A stretch of 64,000 bases of DNA, taken from contig QKAW01000006.1 in the NCBI GenBank assembly GCA_003247135.1, positions 1 to 64,000 of the forward strand. Direction: 5' to 3'. Shown piece by piece: positions 16,855-23,462 of this stretch (its first letter is position 1; the number at the start of each line of letters is the position of its first letter). The translations under genes and the position numbers were made by a program. The notes beneath the pieces are model-generated. The model saw only the letters and a list, made by a program, of their open reading frames with translations. It ran no database searches and was not told where the DNA came from. This stretch comes from Spirochaetales bacterium (GTDB taxonomy: Bacteria > Spirochaetota > Spirochaetia > DSM-2461).

Positions 16855-18519
16855 ATGAAATTTAATGATTACGCATTTAGTGCGGAAATTAAAAGCGGGA
16901 TAGAGAAGGCCAAATTTGAAGAGTGCACTCCCGTACAGGAAAAAACTTTCAATTTTATTTTGGAAGGTAGAGATGTATATGCTCAATCTCAAACAGGAAC
17001 AGGTAAAACAGCAGCATTTTTAATATCAATATTCCATCTGTTACAATCAGAAAAGTATTTAAATAGTAAAGCTTTAGTAGTTGTGCCAACTAGAGAACTG
17101 GCTGTGCAGATAAAAGAAGAAGCTGAGTTATTAGGGCAGGATTTAAATTTTAAATATGGTTGTTTTTATGGTGGGACCGGTTATAAGTCCCAGGAAGCCC
17201 AGCTCGATGAAGGTGTTGATATAGTAATTGCAACACCGGGTAGATTACTGGATTTTAAGAAGCAGGGTAAGATAAATTTTAATGATTTTTCAATTCTGGT
17301 TATAGATGAAGCTGACAGACTTTTTGATATGGGTTTTGTCGATGATATTAGAAAGATCTTTGAAGCAACAAAAAAAGTTGAGAACAAAATTACACTGCTT
17401 TTTAGTGCAACTATGAACCCTAGTGTAGGAAATATTTCCTGGGAATATATGAAAAACCCTGGGGAGATTTTTATTGAAGCAGAACAGCTAACTGTAGATG
17501 CTATATCCCAGGAGTTATATCACGTAGGAAAAGATGAGAAGATGAGTTTCTTACTTGGTATTATGAAGAGAGAGAATCCGGATTCAGCAATTATATTTAC
17601 TAATACTAAATATATGGCTCATGAAGTTTCTAAAAGGCTGGAATATAATGGCTATAAAAACGAATATTTAATGGGGGATCTTCCTCAGAAAAAAAGATTA
17701 AATATTGTTAATAGCATTAAAGAAGGGAAATTGAAATTTCTTGTAGCAACGGATGTTGCTGCTAGAGGGCTTCATGTTGATGATCTCTCTTTGGTAATTA
17801 ATTATGATCTTCCTTTGGATTCAGAAAATTACGTTCATAGAATAGGAAGAACTGCCCGAGCAGGAAAAAAGGGTAAGGCAATAACTTTAGCTTGTGAAAA
17901 TTACGTTTACAGTCTTTCAGGAATTGAAGATTATATTGATGCAAAAATTCCTGTATTCCCAATTACAGATGATCTTTTTGTTGAGGATAAAAGTTCTCAT
18001 TTAAGATTTAGCCTTAACGATACAAGAAATAGTGATAAAAAAGGTAATAGTAAGAAAAACTATAAATCCAGAGATGGAAAGAGAACAGGGAATAGTGGAA
18101 ATTATAAGAAAAATAAAGAGAGTGATGCGGAGAGGTTAAACAGGCTTAGAAACAGTGTAATGAATGTTTCAGGTTCAAACTCTTTGGATACTAACTTTGA
18201 AATAGAGAAGAAAGCATCACATAAATCAAAAAGTTATCAGGATAAAGCTGTTAAGCAGAAGAGTGGAAAAAACACCAAGAAGCGAAATGATTTTAAAGTT
18301 AGAAAAAATGATACTCCTAAGTACACTGATAATATTAAAAGAGTTTCTTCTGAGTCAAATATGGAAGATCGTATTGCTTATTACAAAAAGAAATATGGTG
18401 AGGACTTCAAATTTAACGAATCTATTACAAATAAAGTGGCTAAACCGAAAGATAAAGGTTCAGATATTCAAACCAAAAAGAGCTTATTTAATAAAATTAA
18501 GTCAATTTTTAGCAAGTAA
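16855..18519 (+). CDS. DEAD-box ATP-dependent RNA helicase
   Basis: Two RecA domains carry all classical motifs: SQTGTGKT (about 45-52), PTRELAVQI, TPGR, DEAD (near 151), SAT (near 184), the FTNTK region, ATDVAARGLHVDD and HRIGRTARAGKKG (near 327). The last roughly 170 residues form a Lys/Ser/Asn-rich basic tail of low complexity, common in RhlE/RhlB-like helicases and probably RNA-binding. Likely roles are ribosome assembly or mRNA decay. AGGAAG precedes the ATG and a good promoter lies upstream. The stop overlaps the convergent pgeF end by 11 bases. Confidence 0.94.
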   Translation: MKFNDYAFSAEIKSGIEKAKFEECTPVQEKTFNFILEGRDVYAQSQTGTGKTAAFLISIFHLLQSEKYLNSKALVVVPTRELAVQIKEEAELLGQDLNFKYGCFYGGTGYKSQEAQLDEGVDIVIATPGRLLDFKKQGKINFNDFSILVIDEADRLFDMGFVDDIRKIFEATKKVENKITLLFSATMNPSVGNISWEYMKNPGEIFIEAEQLTVDAISQELYHVGKDEKMSFLLGIMKRENPDSAIIFTNTKYMAHEVSKRLEYNGYKNEYLMGDLPQKKRLNIVNSIKEGKLKFLVATDVAARGLHVDDLSLVINYDLPLDSENYVHRIGRTARAGKKGKAITLACENYVYSLSGIEDYIDAKIPVFPITDDLFVEDKSSHLRFSLNDTRNSDKKGNSKKNYKSRDGKRTGNSGNYKKNKESDAERLNRLRNSVMNVSGSNSLDTNFEIEKKASHKSKSYQDKAVKQKSGKNTKKRNDFKVRKNDTPKYTDNIKRVSSESNMEDRIAYYKKKYGEDFKFNESITNKVAKPKDKGSDIQTKKSLFNKIKSIFSK

Positions 18520-19273
18520 GTTTTAAAAAGCAGGAGAATCTACCAGTAGTTTCTCCTTCTTTTCTATATGAGTAAAATTCATCAGTATTGCATGAAGTAC
18601 ATAAATCCATAATTTCAATATTCTGGTGCGGTATATTAACTGATAAAGCCTGATTATAATTAATTCGTTTTAGATCCAGATAGAAATTCTTATTTTTTAT
18701 ATATCCTTCATCTTTACCCGGTGAAAATCTTAAATATAAATCCTCAGATACATTGTAGCAGCAGGAACCTATAGATGGACCAATTCCAATTAAAATATCT
18801 TCAGGTTTTGAGTCGTATTTTTTTGTAAAGAGTGTGACCATGGATTGTAAAAGATTTAATTCTGTTCCTTTCCAGCCACAATGACAAAGACCTCCAATTT
18901 GCTTTCTTCTATCATAAACTGCTATTGGTACACAATCTGCAACATAGATATTAAGTAGAGGTAAGGTTATGTCTGTATAAATTCCATCACATTCTACAAC
19001 ATTGTGACCACAGTTATCTTTATTAATATACTGAATTGTATCGCCATGTACCTGAATCCCATGGGTATATAAATCAGGATCACACTCTAAAATATCACAT
19101 AAAATTTGTCTGTTCTTATTAACATTTTCTTTTGAATCTCCGGTGTGAGTTGCTAAATTAAAGGTTCTATAGCTTTCACTGGAAACTCCTCCATTCCTTG
19201 TTGTTATTCCGGTTTTTACCGGGTAATTTTTAAACAGATTCCATTCAATTATTCTAGAGTTTTGATATTTCAT
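18509..19273 (-). CDS. pgeF: peptidoglycan editing factor PgeF (YfiH/laccase-domain family)
   Basis: 254 residues, typical of the multicopper polyphenol-oxidase-domain family now known in E. coli to correct L-Ser misincorporation in cell-wall precursors. Seen here: TTRNGGVS near the N-terminus, QVHGDTI, VADCVPIAVYD, CHCGWKGTELN and IGPSIGSCCYNV, which hold the His/Cys metal-site residues. It overlaps the end of the upstream TPR gene by 20 bases, so the two are probably co-translated. Confidence 0.9.
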   Translation of the reverse strand: MKYQNSRIIEWNLFKNYPVKTGITTRNGGVSSESYRTFNLATHTGDSKENVNKNRQILCDILECDPDLYTHGIQVHGDTIQYINKDNCGHNVVECDGIYTDITLPLLNIYVADCVPIAVYDRRKQIGGLCHCGWKGTELNLLQSMVTLFTKKYDSKPEDILIGIGPSIGSCCYNVSEDLYLRFSPGKDEGYIKNKNFYLDLKRINYNQALSVNIPHQNIEIMDLCTSCNTDEFYSYRKEGETTGRFSCFLKLTC

Positions 19274-20351
19274 CTATTAAACTCTCTGCTTTAATTTTAT
19301 ATTCAGAATTCTCAATTTTATTAAGATATTTTTTTGAAATTAAATAATCTTTACTGTTAAAGAAATTTACACCTATAGAGTAATATACTAAATCTTCTGG
19401 TGCACCAAGATCCAGTGCCTTTGAAAAATTTGAATATGCTTCATTGTACATTTTTAAATTACTATAGCATGCTGCAATATAGTAGAATGGACTATAGTTT
19501 TTTTCAGATATCTTAGTAGCTTCTAAAAAACTGTTTAGTGAATTATCAAATTCAGACTTATTGTAAAAACTTATACCTTCTGCCATGAATTCACTAAATG
19601 TTTTAATTTCATTTGCATAATTTAGTAATATATTGTCCAGGTCAAACTCTTTAAATCGGGATGTAATTGCTGAGTCTATCATTTCAGGTTCTTCGTACTT
19701 AATTATTGATAATGAATCCCAGAATAGTCGATTATGCTCCTTATTCGTGGCATGAAGAAGATAATCAAATACAATCCAGTTTAAATAATTTTTAGGATCA
19801 CTGTTTACTTGACCGGTTACAGTTGTAAAAATTTTATTTTTGTAATTACTGCTTTTAATAAGTGTCATCATTTTGTCATTATTTATTTTAATATTTTCAT
19901 TATCCTGGAAATAAGTTGCTACACCAGAACTAAACCAGAATGGTGTACCTTGCCCAAAGAATTGGAAATACTGTAGAGTTAAATAGTATGAAAGTGAGGA
20001 AAAAAGTATTAATTCAGAACTGTAAATAATAATTCTTGAATTTCCACTACTGTATTTTAGGAAAATATAGTCATCCCTCTCTGGTATTGTTAACTGATCC
20101 AGATATTTGTTAAATGACTCCTTGTCATTAAGAATATAGATATCTCTTTTTGAATCCATTTTTTTAGAAAGCTTTAATTCTTTATCAATTAATTTGTTAT
20201 AAGTTTCACAGTATTCTAGTATTTTATCAATATTTAAATTTTCATGGTGGAGAAAATTAAAATTTTCACTTTTCGTACTAATAAATTCTTCACTTTGTAA
20301 ATGCAATGCAGTAAAAAGTATTATGTTGAGAGCAAGTAAAATTTTCTTCAT
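19254..20351 (-). CDS. secreted protein with C-terminal TPR repeats
   Basis: 365 residues with a signal peptide (MKKILLALNIILFTALHLQS). Residues 25-230 resemble the layout of peptidase-MA-like domains (YYLTLQYFQFF ... TPFWFSSGVATYF), but no HExxH metal motif is present, so it is probably not a protease. About 260-360 contains two or three TPR-like units (SPFYYIAACYSNLKMYNEAY, PEDLVYYSIGVNFFNSKDYL). Likely periplasmic. TAGGAG precedes the ATG. Part of a minus-strand operon from the pseudouridine synthase to pgeF. Confidence 0.65.
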   Translation of the reverse strand: MKKILLALNIILFTALHLQSEEFISTKSENFNFLHHENLNIDKILEYCETYNKLIDKELKLSKKMDSKRDIYILNDKESFNKYLDQLTIPERDDYIFLKYSSGNSRIIIYSSELILFSSLSYYLTLQYFQFFGQGTPFWFSSGVATYFQDNENIKINNDKMMTLIKSSNYKNKIFTTVTGQVNSDPKNYLNWIVFDYLLHATNKEHNRLFWDSLSIIKYEEPEMIDSAITSRFKEFDLDNILLNYANEIKTFSEFMAEGISFYNKSEFDNSLNSFLEATKISEKNYSPFYYIAACYSNLKMYNEAYSNFSKALDLGAPEDLVYYSIGVNFFNSKDYLISKKYLNKIENSEYKIKAESLIDEISKL

Positions 20352-20360
20352 TTTTAACTC

Positions 20361-21215
20361 CTATTTATGGGAAACCTGATCAATAGTTATATCAACACTC
20401 TCAATGATTAATCCTGTAAGTCTCTCAATACTTTCTGTAATATATTTTTGTAGTGTATGAAAATTCCCTGAAAGTTGTTCACCAAAAGATACATTGACAA
20501 ACAGACTTATGGTATATCCATTTTGAGACTGGGATACAATAATTTTTTTTACTTTTATACTTTCACTGTGTTCATCCACACAGTGGAGAACCATTTGGCT
20601 AAGTGCTGCCTCGGAAATTGATATTGCCCCTTTATCTTTACTATTAAATGTCGGTCTTACAACAGATTTTTCTACATATCTCTTACTTTTCTTTCTAGAG
20701 AAGAATACCTTTATTGAGTCATAAAATATGTGGGAATAATCTCTTTTTACTTCAATAGATGGCACAGGGATAACGTGTTTTCCTTCCTTGGTTCGTGATT
20801 TTATTGCAGTCTCAATCTCTTCTTTACTTGCAATATCCTCTATTTGAATATATGTTGAAATTTCAGGAAGTTCCAGACGTTCAGCAATTTTAGCTACCAT
20901 TTTATTTGATGTTCCTATTAGTAGTATTTTTTTAAACTTTATAGATCTTAGTTTGGTTATAACTTCCTGTTTGTGGGCCGGGTTGTCAAAAAGAGCTGTT
21001 TTTATAGCTCCCATATAAGCATCTTCTTTTTTTGCAGATTTACCAGCAACGATTTTTTCGTTGTGAATTAAGAGACCATCATCTATCATTAAATCGATCT
21101 GATATTTCTTGGAAATTAATCCCGCTCTGAAACTTTTCCCCGTTCCACTACGACCAACTAAAGCATATACTTTAACACCTTTTAAACGCCATTTAAATGT
21201 TTTAAATAGATTCAT
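20361..21215 (-). CDS. P-loop ATPase fused to an Asp23/Gls24-like domain
   Basis: About 284 residues. Residues 13-30 hold a Walker A motif, GRSGTGKS (21-28). The region to about 170 behaves as a small P-loop domain, including KKILLIGTSNKMVAKIAERL. Residues about 195-280 resemble Asp23/Gls24: ISISEAALSQMV at its start and ITESIERLTGLIIESVDITI near its end. I do not know a named protein with this architecture. A TTG at 21224 is possible, but I chose the ATG at 21215 because the domain begins naturally there. It overlaps the upstream pseudouridine synthase gene by 14 bases. Soluble, cytoplasmic. Confidence 0.65.
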   Translation of the reverse strand: MNLFKTFKWRLKGVKVYALVGRSGTGKSFRAGLISKKYQIDLMIDDGLLIHNEKIVAGKSAKKEDAYMGAIKTALFDNPAHKQEVITKLRSIKFKKILLIGTSNKMVAKIAERLELPEISTYIQIEDIASKEEIETAIKSRTKEGKHVIPVPSIEVKRDYSHIFYDSIKVFFSRKKSKRYVEKSVVRPTFNSKDKGAISISEAALSQMVLHCVDEHSESIKVKKIIVSQSQNGYTISLFVNVSFGEQLSGNFHTLQKYITESIERLTGLIIESVDITIDQVSHK

Positions 21216-22206
21216 TATTGTCAAGTTCCTTTTTTAACAATCTGTCCACCAGGTTAATCTCTTCTTGTGACAGAAAACTCTTTAGCATAGAGTAATCTGT
21301 TTGAGTGAAAGGTAAATAAATTTTATTTTTATTAATAATATCATTTTTTTTGTTAATAGATAAAGAGATTGCAGATAAATAATAATCTTTAAAATTTTTA
21401 TTTCCACTATATTTAATGTCTCCCGCAAGAGGTCTATTGTGTAGAGCACATTGAACCCGAATCTGATGAGTCCTACCGGTTTTAATCTCAACAATTGCTA
21501 CTGTAAGGTTGTTCTTGGTGTATATAGGAGTAAAAATAGTAATAGCTTCTTTCCCTGAATTAGAAGAATAGCTTTTTAGGGATTTTTCATCCCTTGATAA
21601 TTTATCAACCCACTTCTCTTTTTTAGTAAATGTTCCTTCAACAACTGTTAAATAAAATTTTTGAGTATACCCCTGTTGCAATAAATCTGTAAAAAACCTG
21701 GCTCCGGCTAAAGAGACACTAAATACAATTAATCCTTGTGTGTTTCGATCAAGTCTGTGTAAGGGTCCAGGTGAAAATGAGAGACTCTCAACAGTTTTCT
21801 GTTTAAGATACTCCTTAACTTTTCTGTCAAGACTGTCATTACTTCCATGGACAAGTTCACCCAGTTTCTTGTTGTAAATTATTAAATGTGCATTTTCAAA
21901 AATTATTCTGTTTTTATCTAGTCCAGAAGTAGACTTATCTTCCCTTCTTTTATGGCTTAGAAATTGATTGTATATAGAAATTATGTCTCCGGTATTAACT
22001 CTGCTATTCTGTTTTACTTTTTTATTATTAACAAGAATATCTCCATTTCTTAAACTTTTAAATATTATTTTTAAGGGAAGATCCGGTAGAAACTTTCTAA
22101 CTACATTATCAACTCTTTTATTATCATCATTAATAGTTATGGTAAAATGTTCAAATTTTTCATTATTCACTATAAAAACATACTTATTACCTGGGACTTT
22201 GGTCAA
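21202..22206 (-). CDS. RluA-family RNA pseudouridine synthase
   Basis: 334 residues. An S4 RNA-binding domain (about 25-80) precedes the catalytic domain with HRLDRNTQGLIVF (150-162), in which Asp153 is the catalytic residue, and the GRTHQIRVQ signature further on. RluC/RluD-type enzymes modify 23S rRNA; the exact site cannot be told from sequence. The start is a TTG with AAAGG close before it. A GTG at codon 13 is the alternative, which would still leave the S4 domain whole. First gene of the minus-strand run down to pgeF. Confidence 0.9.
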   Translation of the reverse strand: MTKVPGNKYVFIVNNEKFEHFTITINDDNKRVDNVVRKFLPDLPLKIIFKSLRNGDILVNNKKVKQNSRVNTGDIISIYNQFLSHKRREDKSTSGLDKNRIIFENAHLIIYNKKLGELVHGSNDSLDRKVKEYLKQKTVESLSFSPGPLHRLDRNTQGLIVFSVSLAGARFFTDLLQQGYTQKFYLTVVEGTFTKKEKWVDKLSRDEKSLKSYSSNSGKEAITIFTPIYTKNNLTVAIVEIKTGRTHQIRVQCALHNRPLAGDIKYSGNKNFKDYYLSAISLSINKKNDIINKNKIYLPFTQTDYSMLKSFLSQEEINLVDRLLKKELDNNESI

Positions 22207-22262: not shown

Positions 22263-23462
22263 ATGATTAAAACTGGTTTCAAATTATTTATTATTCTTTT
22301 TTTTATTTTAACTTTTGTCTATTTTTATAAGAAAACTCCTCCTGAAAATCCCTGGAGAGATTATACCCCTGTTCTCTTCGATTCAAATGCAGATTTATTG
22401 GAGGGTGTTGAAATATTAAGAAACGATGGCTATCAGGAAATTGTATACAGAGAGGGGATTACTCTTGGTATTAGTAATTTCAGGGACTTAGAAGAGATGA
22501 CTCTCAATAGTATATCTGAAAAAATTGACAACATAGACTTTAGGAATGATCCATATATAAACTCAGTTGATAAAATTTTTAAGAATGACAAATACTTTAC
22601 ACTGTATATTAAAATCCCTCAAAATGATATTTGGCAAATTGTAAAAGTTTATAATAGCCTTAGTAAGAAAGGTCTTTCATTTAAATTAGGGAATTCGGAT
22701 GTTCTAAGAGTTTTGCTGAATTATTTCTCTTTTATACTAGTTATGTTACTTTTTAGTATAGGAAGTAAAACAAGATTTTTTGCTACACTTTTAAGTGGTA
22801 TTGCAATTTATTTTCTGATGAATGTAAATTCTGTATACAGTTTTATAGGTTTTTATTTAATATATTTTCTTATAATAATGATTATTGAATCACTGTCCTT
22901 TAGTAATACATATATAAAAAGAAATAATATTGGTTATTTCAGGATTTTGTTTGCAATAACACTTTTTGTATTACCAACATTTTTTCCTACATTCCTAGAT
23001 TATACTACAAAGATTTATACTCCTGTTTTTTCAGGGGATAAAGAGATCAGTTATACCAGTCTGGAAAAGAACTATGATGAATCATTAGGGAATTTAAGCA
23101 ATTATTTTGCCCATTATGCTTACCAAAAAGTATTTTTATATGAAGCGAAATATTTGTTTCCAAGTTATAAAAATTCTGTTACAATTGAAGAGTTTGAACT
23201 AAATGATTACTATCTTGAAAATAAAAGACGAGAAGTTGCTAGCTATGATGAAAATTTTTTAAGAGATTTTTTATTATATTGTAATTCAACGGCTATAGGA
23301 CGATTCTATCTAGATTTTGATGAACCTTTTAAATTGGAATTGAATTCTCTTCTAACTATATATATAGTAGAAAAAGAGTATATGCAAATTGGCATATTGG
23401 CTGTTATAATGTTTATCACTTCTATTTCTTTTAAGAAGAGATTCAAACGAAAAAATAATTGA
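22263..23462 (+). CDS. membrane protein of unknown function ahead of the rnf operon
   Basis: 399 residues: one N-terminal helix (about 5-22), an extracytoplasmic alpha/beta region (about 25-140), a cluster of four or five helices (about 150-250), a second extracytoplasmic part (250-370) and a last helix (about 375-392) with a basic cytoplasmic tail. I do not recognise the family. It ends 12 bases before rnfC and is on the same strand, so it may be part of the rnf transcript; whether it works with Rnf is unknown. GGAAA precedes the ATG. Confidence 0.6.
   Translation: MIKTGFKLFIILFFILTFVYFYKKTPPENPWRDYTPVLFDSNADLLEGVEILRNDGYQEIVYREGITLGISNFRDLEEMTLNSISEKIDNIDFRNDPYINSVDKIFKNDKYFTLYIKIPQNDIWQIVKVYNSLSKKGLSFKLGNSDVLRVLLNYFSFILVMLLFSIGSKTRFFATLLSGIAIYFLMNVNSVYSFIGFYLIYFLIIMIIESLSFSNTYIKRNNIGYFRILFAITLFVLPTFFPTFLDYTTKIYTPVFSGDKEISYTSLEKNYDESLGNLSNYFAHYAYQKVFLYEAKYLFPSYKNSVTIEEFELNDYYLENKRREVASYDENFLRDFLLYCNSTAIGRFYLDFDEPFKLELNSLLTIYIVEKEYMQIGILAVIMFITSISFKKRFKRKNN

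Follow-up and report, generated by a model that had tools for sequence, protein, structure and literature searches.

Proteins of the Asp23 family occur widely and may reach very high abundance, and the parts of two accounts drawn on here describe their molecular function as unclear (PMC6954212, PMC5437119). S. aureus Asp23 forms filaments in vitro, has a cellular distribution compatible with filaments and attaches to the membrane through AmaP, according to the first of these excerpts (PMC6954212), while the second places B. subtilis YqhY, a protein linked to acetyl-CoA carboxylase, in the same family (PMC5437119). The family is called exclusively Gram-positive in the one excerpt (PMC6954212), and the phylum list in the other names further phyla, spirochaetes not among them (PMC5437119).

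Here we analyse a spirochaete gene that joins an Asp23-type domain to a P-loop domain, encoded in a stretch of 64,000 nucleotides of a Spirochaetales genome (henceforth the window). An earlier note on this DNA had read the gene as a fusion of a P-loop ATPase to an Asp23-like domain and had supposed that no described protein joins the two. The literature that we searched contained no description of such a fusion, in agreement with that statement; on the other hand, a homologue from Monoglobus (WP_158648977.1) already carries the public annotation "Asp23/Gls24 family envelope stress response protein". The fusion is thus neither unique nor wholly unannotated, and in the one case seen the name Asp23/Gls24 hides its architecture.

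Anatomy of the P-loop/Asp23 protein

The fusion protein of 284 residues is encoded by one uninterrupted open frame on the reverse strand (20361-21215), where the earlier note had placed it, with an ATG at 21215 and homologues that are full-length. An alternative TTG start at 21224, three codons 5' of the ATG, is possible and less likely. The ATG lies inside the end of the gene for an RluA-family pseudouridine synthase (21202-22206, reverse strand; PF00849, 88.3 bits), the two overlapping by 14 nt (21202-21215), which bears out the coupling that had been described. Downstream on the same strand, also as described, come a gene for a TPR protein directly behind the fusion (19254-20351; TPR matches below cut-off, an N-terminal signal peptide being likely by eye) and one for a PgeF-type protein (18509-19273; Pfam Cu-oxidase_4, PF02578, 220.6 bits), with 20 nt shared between them (19254-19273). 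On the forward strand, positions 22263-23462 encode a 399-aa protein, of membrane type as judged by eye, immediately before Rnf genes; it had zero Pfam or NCBIfam matches at E<=10, and its homologues lie upstream of the fusion gene on the opposite strand in 13 of 28 loci.

The C-terminal domain (residues 199-284; 20364-20621, reverse strand) is of Asp23/AmaP type, with a predicted alpha-beta-beta-alpha-beta order. Pfam Asp23 (PF03780) matches the window protein over residues 221-281 with 29.5 bits (E 1e-6), above the curated cut-off of 28 bits, and the same holds for the Monoglobus homologue (29.8 bits) and for the protein of genome G110 (29.1 bits). The same model matches each of the 22 sequences of alignment A1 at E<=1, the best at 2.8e-7. 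The profile of the domain was also compared by hhalign with one built from nine free-standing Asp23-like proteins of other spirochaete classes, giving a probability of 97.2% over 103 columns; the controls, in which the C-terminal profile was set against three P-loop families and the profile of the P-loop half was set against Asp23, stayed below 1%. Profile searches were what the note had said could overturn its Asp23-like half, and they do match Asp23. The AmaP model NF033218 likewise reaches E<=0.1 in 72 of the 87 members, with a best value of 9.2e-10; the window protein scores 18.5 bits where the cut-off is 55. In a fold search with the predicted model, the domain resembled the C-terminal domains of CDF transporters (2zzt, Z 10.9, rmsd 2.1 over 77 residues). 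CDF C-terminal domains dimerise.

The P-loop domain (residues 14-144; 20784-21176, reverse strand) is delimited from an AlphaFold2 model, in which its predicted order is beta1-P-loop-alpha1-beta2(DD)-beta hairpin-helices-beta3-alpha3-beta4-alpha4. The Walker A motif read in the earlier note, GRSGTGKS, is present at residues 21-28 (21132-21155, reverse strand) and is conserved in alignment A2, with G21, G24, G26, K27 and S28 invariant across the 87 rows; so is DDG (45-47), whose D45-D46 lie on strand 2. Columns 97-103 are hydrophobic and lead into G-T-S at the end of strand 3, where the A2 columns hold no conserved acidic residue, and hence no Walker B acid as in ABC or AAA proteins. With G-T-S and no conserved acid at this strand end, the label "ATPase" is not supported for this half.

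Searches of family models place the P-loop half below every curated Pfam and NCBIfam cut-off. ABC_tran scores 22.5 bits in the window protein (cut-off 25), and the members of A1 match ABC_tran (22 of 22, best E 8.9e-5) and AAA (21 of 22, best E 1.5e-5) weakly. Weak NCBIfam matches are spread over several P-loop families, among them gluconokinase NF008583 (20 of 87 members, best E 0.004), dephospho-CoA kinase TIGR00152 (17 of 87, best E 0.006) and GntK TIGR01313 (12 of 87, best E 0.014); for the last of these the window protein was unreported at E<=10 and G000 gave no match. Profile comparison aligned residues 11-49 with GntK (39 columns, 94%; a profile of 6 sequences), residues 19-67 with HprK (PF07475; 48 columns, 82%, an alignment that takes in the DD strand and the hairpin) and 43 columns with CoaE (80%); of 25 loci each, 5 contributed to the CoaE profile and 24 to that of HprK. 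These different kinase families score similarly among themselves (GntK against CoaE 94%, CoaE against HprK 79%, GntK against HprK 63%), and the alignments therefore show only the shared P-loop. No complete catalytic set of any kinase family was recognised in this half.

Structural comparison gave Era as the top single Foldseek match (7c1o, E 2.1e-5), with an rmsd of 17.6 over the chain; an earlier structure model found another Era at 2.8e-3, and gluconate kinase 1ko4 appeared at E about 8e-3. Fold searches of full-length models were dominated by matches to the C-terminal domain. The NKxD GTP motif of Era is not conserved at columns 103-107, which read S-E-K-M-V in most members, nor is it found elsewhere in the protein, as judged from the invariant columns of A2. 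Searches of solved structures by sequence, with either the protein or A1 as query, were set aside: they returned matches around the Walker A motif, chiefly to ABC transporters, and chance matches such as proteasome subunits and designed proteins. With its G-T-S strand end and invariant D45-D46, the domain looks to us more like small kinases than motor ATPases. We assign it to no family and read it as a small nucleotide-binding domain that lacks a Walker B acid and would be kinase-like in type.

Conservation was measured over A2, which consists of P0001 and 86 of the 98 collected full-length stretches; the truncated or interrupted copies of G113, G288, G353 and G385 are left out, and the figures refer to full-length copies only. 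The 87 homologues share 22 invariant columns, 21 of them within residues 21-150 and one in the linker (P188), and the Asp23 domain holds zero. Mean pairwise identity is 0.35 in the N-terminal helix, 0.59 in the P-loop core, 0.76 in a strap that follows this core (residues 145-156, GKHVIPVPSIEV; 20748-20783, reverse strand), 0.31 over residues 157-181, 0.68 over residues 182-190, and 0.41 in the Asp23 domain. An EK-VVRP motif occupies residues 182-188. Given the conserved stretches at 145-156 and 182-190, the inter-domain link is not a loose spacer throughout.

The strap is the best conserved stretch measured, with H147 and P150 present in all 87 rows, yet its pLDDT is below 50. R141 is also invariant in A2, and R141 and H147 fall about where, we presume, gluconokinase has its lid. 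In the AlphaFold2 model, computed from 87 sequences, pLDDT averaged over ten-residue blocks runs from 71 to 97 over residues 11 to 140; it is mostly above 80 in both domains and below 50 for residues 145-197, and a pTM of 0.55 means that the relative placement of the two domains is not confidently predicted. High conservation combined with low confidence of the model suggests a binding role for the strap. An amphipathic N-terminal membrane helix was also considered and dropped, since the hydrophobic moment is unremarkable beside that of soluble-domain helices: the N-terminal helix has a mean z of 0.98 (51 of 87 rows being long enough), against 0.89 and 1.88 for internal helices of the soluble domains.

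Distribution of the fusion and of Asp23 genes beside accC

The earlier note had proposed a survey of the architecture across spirochaetes. In a first search the protein was matched in 59 of 61 genomes, its own included, and in all 39 of the quality subset (at least 90% complete, at most 5% contaminated); the two genomes without a match are 74% (G007) and 71% (G021) complete. Matches were unbroken from residue 15 or earlier to residue 279 or later in 58 of the 59, the exception being G046. Across the phylum, 224 of 392 genomes match, among them 210 of the 214 listed members of the window's class, which its named relatives indicate to be Spirochaetia (the exceptions are G361, G404, G405 and G424). 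Two of the 224 matches, both at about 5e-4, are marginal: that in G150 falls on a free-standing Asp23-like gene, and that in G234 covers residues 2-86 only, within a 629-aa frame that we read as an ABC transporter. A few copies are split across contigs or interrupted (G353, G288 and G385). The fusion is therefore not rare, being near-universal in its class and present in 12 sampled genomes of other classes of the phylum and in one clostridial protein. It is old in the class Spirochaetia, and a chance or assembly origin is excluded because so many genomes share it.

The 12 carriers from other classes of the phylum (G061, G063, G074, G075, G086, G096, G097, G104, G110, G118, G124 and G131) all match PF03780 as well, each at the position of the protein match and within a long frame. 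In a tree that was midpoint-rooted for drawing only, six other-class members (f37, f50 and f63) and the Monoglobus protein stand apart from the 81 other rows (98/89), a side that includes f39 and f57; the placement of Monoglobus is unsure because its branch is very long. The Monoglobus pectinilyticus protein, the one Bacillota sequence compared, shows 35.5% identity, with 95% of the query aligned. It was the sole source of relatives among plasmid records with either query, viral contigs held no relative of A2, and phage records held none of the Monoglobus protein. Its gene lies directly behind rex (L120:12013-12882) on a 286-kb record that is named a plasmid and carries central-metabolism genes; because of these genes, the record may be a piece of chromosome or a chromid.

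The two halves of the protein have fared differently within the class. In one 1.1-Mb genome on the Treponema side, which we take for a syphilis-type treponeme (G113, family f25, L077 / L119), the P-loop half is intact up to the EK-VRP motif, and no Asp23 match is recognisable after that motif. Since nothing recognisable as Asp23 accompanies it in this genome, the P-loop half may be able to act on its own. The genomes of f20, which we read as Borrelia-like from genome size and neighbouring genes, encode a full-length but diverged protein: the f20 genomes listed have no PF03780 match at E<=0.001, and one scanned Borrelia-like protein had none at E<=0.1, nor had that of G046. In all, 20 of 51 genomes with the P-loop/fusion protein lack a PF03780 match at E<=0.001. 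The loss in G113, the divergence in f20 and the conservation figures make the P-loop half the constant part of the protein.

A sample of 198 genomes separates two kinds of Asp23 gene. PF03780 matches 43 of these genomes at E<=0.001, each once, a count limited to what this model detects, given the 20 of 51 carriers that it misses at this threshold. The match lies in a long frame in 31 genomes (283-353 aa, the fusion; 22 above cut-off) and in a short, free-standing frame in 12 (101-170 aa; five above cut-off), and none of the 12 short-frame genomes carries the P-loop half, the weak match in G150 being its Asp23-like gene. Each of these 12 genomes contains an AccC match with an E-value of at most 1e-200, and by the listed coordinates it lies about 200 nt or less from the Asp23-like gene in 11 of them. 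Free-standing Asp23-like genes adjoining accC are seen at L200-L205, L207 and L208, all from other spirochaete classes. Family searches of one such operon, from another spirochaete class, gave peptidase M24, EF-P, AccB, AccC, an Asp23-like protein (25.5 bits, cut-off 28) and an AmaP-like protein (53.2 bits, cut-off 55), the counterpart of the last at L208 reaching 56.

The same sample contains 51 carriers of the P-loop/fusion protein, 39 from the class (G113 counted) and the 12 others. No AccC match better than 1e-20 was found in 29 of them, Borrelia-like genomes among these, and the window's own genome, itself only 71% complete, is included in this number. The other 22 each have an AccC-like match with an E-value of at most 9.5e-99; only seven of the 22 exceed the accC cut-off, and in one of the 22 the match is in a 1168-aa frame. 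The best match in these genomes is either on a different contig or 200 kb or more away from the fusion gene. In the window, too, the fusion gene adjoins the RluA and TPR genes and not accB or accC, the neighbours expected of a YqhY-type gene. Because the fusion is never beside accC and 29 of 51 carriers lack such an AccC match, the data argue against a tie of the fused form to acetyl-CoA carboxylase such as B. subtilis YqhY has.

Genomic setting and possible functions

Neighbouring genes were counted in 28 loci, which are not all independent (two near-duplicate pairs; two loci of the window's genus) and in which annotation covers a minority of the neighbours. A homologue of the TPR gene lies downstream of the fusion gene on the same strand in 18 loci and RluA upstream in 12, while RnfC-like genes are nearby in 18 (divergent in 16), a gene of poly(A) polymerase type in 17 (by Pfam on one member), and a DUF212 (divergent PAP2) membrane protein in nine. 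One Borrelia-like locus has a Mur ligase, adjoining, and YicC downstream of the fusion gene. At L210, from a genome of another class (G061), the gene follows a run that by eye resembles ffh-rpsP-KH-rimM-trmD-rplS. A redox link, for which the Rnf genes in 18 of 28 loci and rex before the Monoglobus gene might be cited, was set aside with gene order as its sole basis. The envelope or cell-wall role hinted at in the earlier note has the Asp23 name and the neighbours as its basis. The TPR and DUF212 genes and the one Mur ligase leave such a link possible, whereas the RluA, poly(A) polymerase-type and Rnf genes point elsewhere; the setting is largely one of housekeeping genes.

Two-domain anatomy, its conservation and its separation from accC-linked Asp23 genes are what the analysis shows. 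Our leading reading, to which we give rather less than even confidence, is of a nucleotide-binding protein whose Asp23/AmaP-type domain would serve assembly. It would be a scaffold or switch gated by nucleotide, located probably close to the inner membrane, and would not be a partner of acetyl-CoA carboxylase. In this view assembly or partner binding through the Asp23 domain would be under the control of the P-loop domain's nucleotide state, and the strap (145-156) with EK-VVRP (182-188) could be the moving link between the halves. The invariant Walker A and DDG residues, the conserved link and the CDF-like fold of the C-terminal domain speak for this reading; an N-terminal helix of ordinary amphipathicity, the P-loop half kept by itself in G113, the diverged Asp23 half in f20, the 20 of 51 carriers that PF03780 misses and the low-confidence domain placement speak against it. 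Nucleotide-gated assembly is suggested by analogy with S. aureus, because Asp23 is described there as forming filaments in vitro and attaching to the membrane via AmaP (PMC6954212). The fullest version of this proposal, that of a core spirochaete protein assembling under the inner membrane via its Asp23 domain, under the control of an unfamiliar P-loop switch, and having replaced, in the class ancestor, an Asp23/AmaP pair linked to accC, we consider improbable.

Among the rivals, a true kinase comes before an RNA-linked switch, and a lipid regulator like YqhY comes last. The protein might phosphorylate a metabolite, a lipid head group or a protein, its Asp23 half serving only to bring it to a partner or the membrane. 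The weak matches to gluconokinase and dephospho-CoA kinase models, the Foldseek match 1ko4, the invariant D45-D46 on strand 2 and, if the lid lies where we assume, the invariant R141 and H147 would all fit such an enzyme, as would the better conservation of the P-loop half and its retention in G113. Against this stand profile alignments confined to the Walker A region, scores similar to those between different families, the lack of a recognisable complete catalytic set, and ABC and AAA models that match as many members or more; we regard a kinase as doubtful.

A P-loop switch tied to RNA or ribosome work would resemble Era, in which a P-loop domain is followed by a small alpha/beta RNA-binding domain. 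Era indeed heads the Foldseek matches, and RluA (12 of 28 loci), the poly(A) polymerase-type gene (17 of 28), YicC in the Borrelia-like locus and the trmD-rplS-like genes upstream in L210 are neighbours of a suitable kind; but the Era superposition is poor along the chain, NKxD is not conserved at 103-107, the C-terminal domain is Asp23 by sequence and CDF C-terminal by fold, and housekeeping neighbours are weak evidence, which makes this switch quite unlikely. Less probable still is a regulator of fatty-acid synthesis like B. subtilis YqhY. Membership of YqhY in the Asp23 family and the free-standing spirochaete genes that adjoin accC in 11 of 12 genomes speak for it, yet the fused form departs from precisely this arrangement, through the 29 carriers that lack a good AccC match and the distance of AccC from the fusion gene in the other 22, with few above cut-off. 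We keep the nucleotide-gated scaffold or switch as the tentative first choice.

Comparison with known systems

The analysis adds spirochaetes to the phyla known to have the Asp23 family and separates two kinds of Asp23 within one phylum, accC-linked and fused. A fused nucleotide-binding domain, found across a class that includes Treponema and Borrelia-like members, ties the Asp23 family to a measurable activity.

Set beside gluconokinase, dephospho-CoA kinase and HPr kinase, the window protein can be aligned in the Walker A and strand-2 region, but the alignment ends after 39-48 columns and the protein stays under all their cut-offs. The Monoglobus protein WP_158648977.1 has the same two-domain architecture as the spirochaete fusion; it differs in coming from Bacillota, in the position of its gene behind rex, in its shorter N-terminus and in its plasmid-named record. 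AmaP, the membrane anchor of Asp23, has a C-terminal half that resembles the C-terminal domain of the fusion, whereas the window protein reaches 18.5 of the 55 bits required by the AmaP model and shows no transmembrane segment by eye. The members of the Asp23/Gls24 family (S. aureus Asp23, B. subtilis YloU and YqhY) are like this C-terminal domain by the Pfam cut-off and by profile; the spirochaete form, by contrast, sits behind a P-loop domain, and accC is not adjacent to it in the 22 genomes that list both places.
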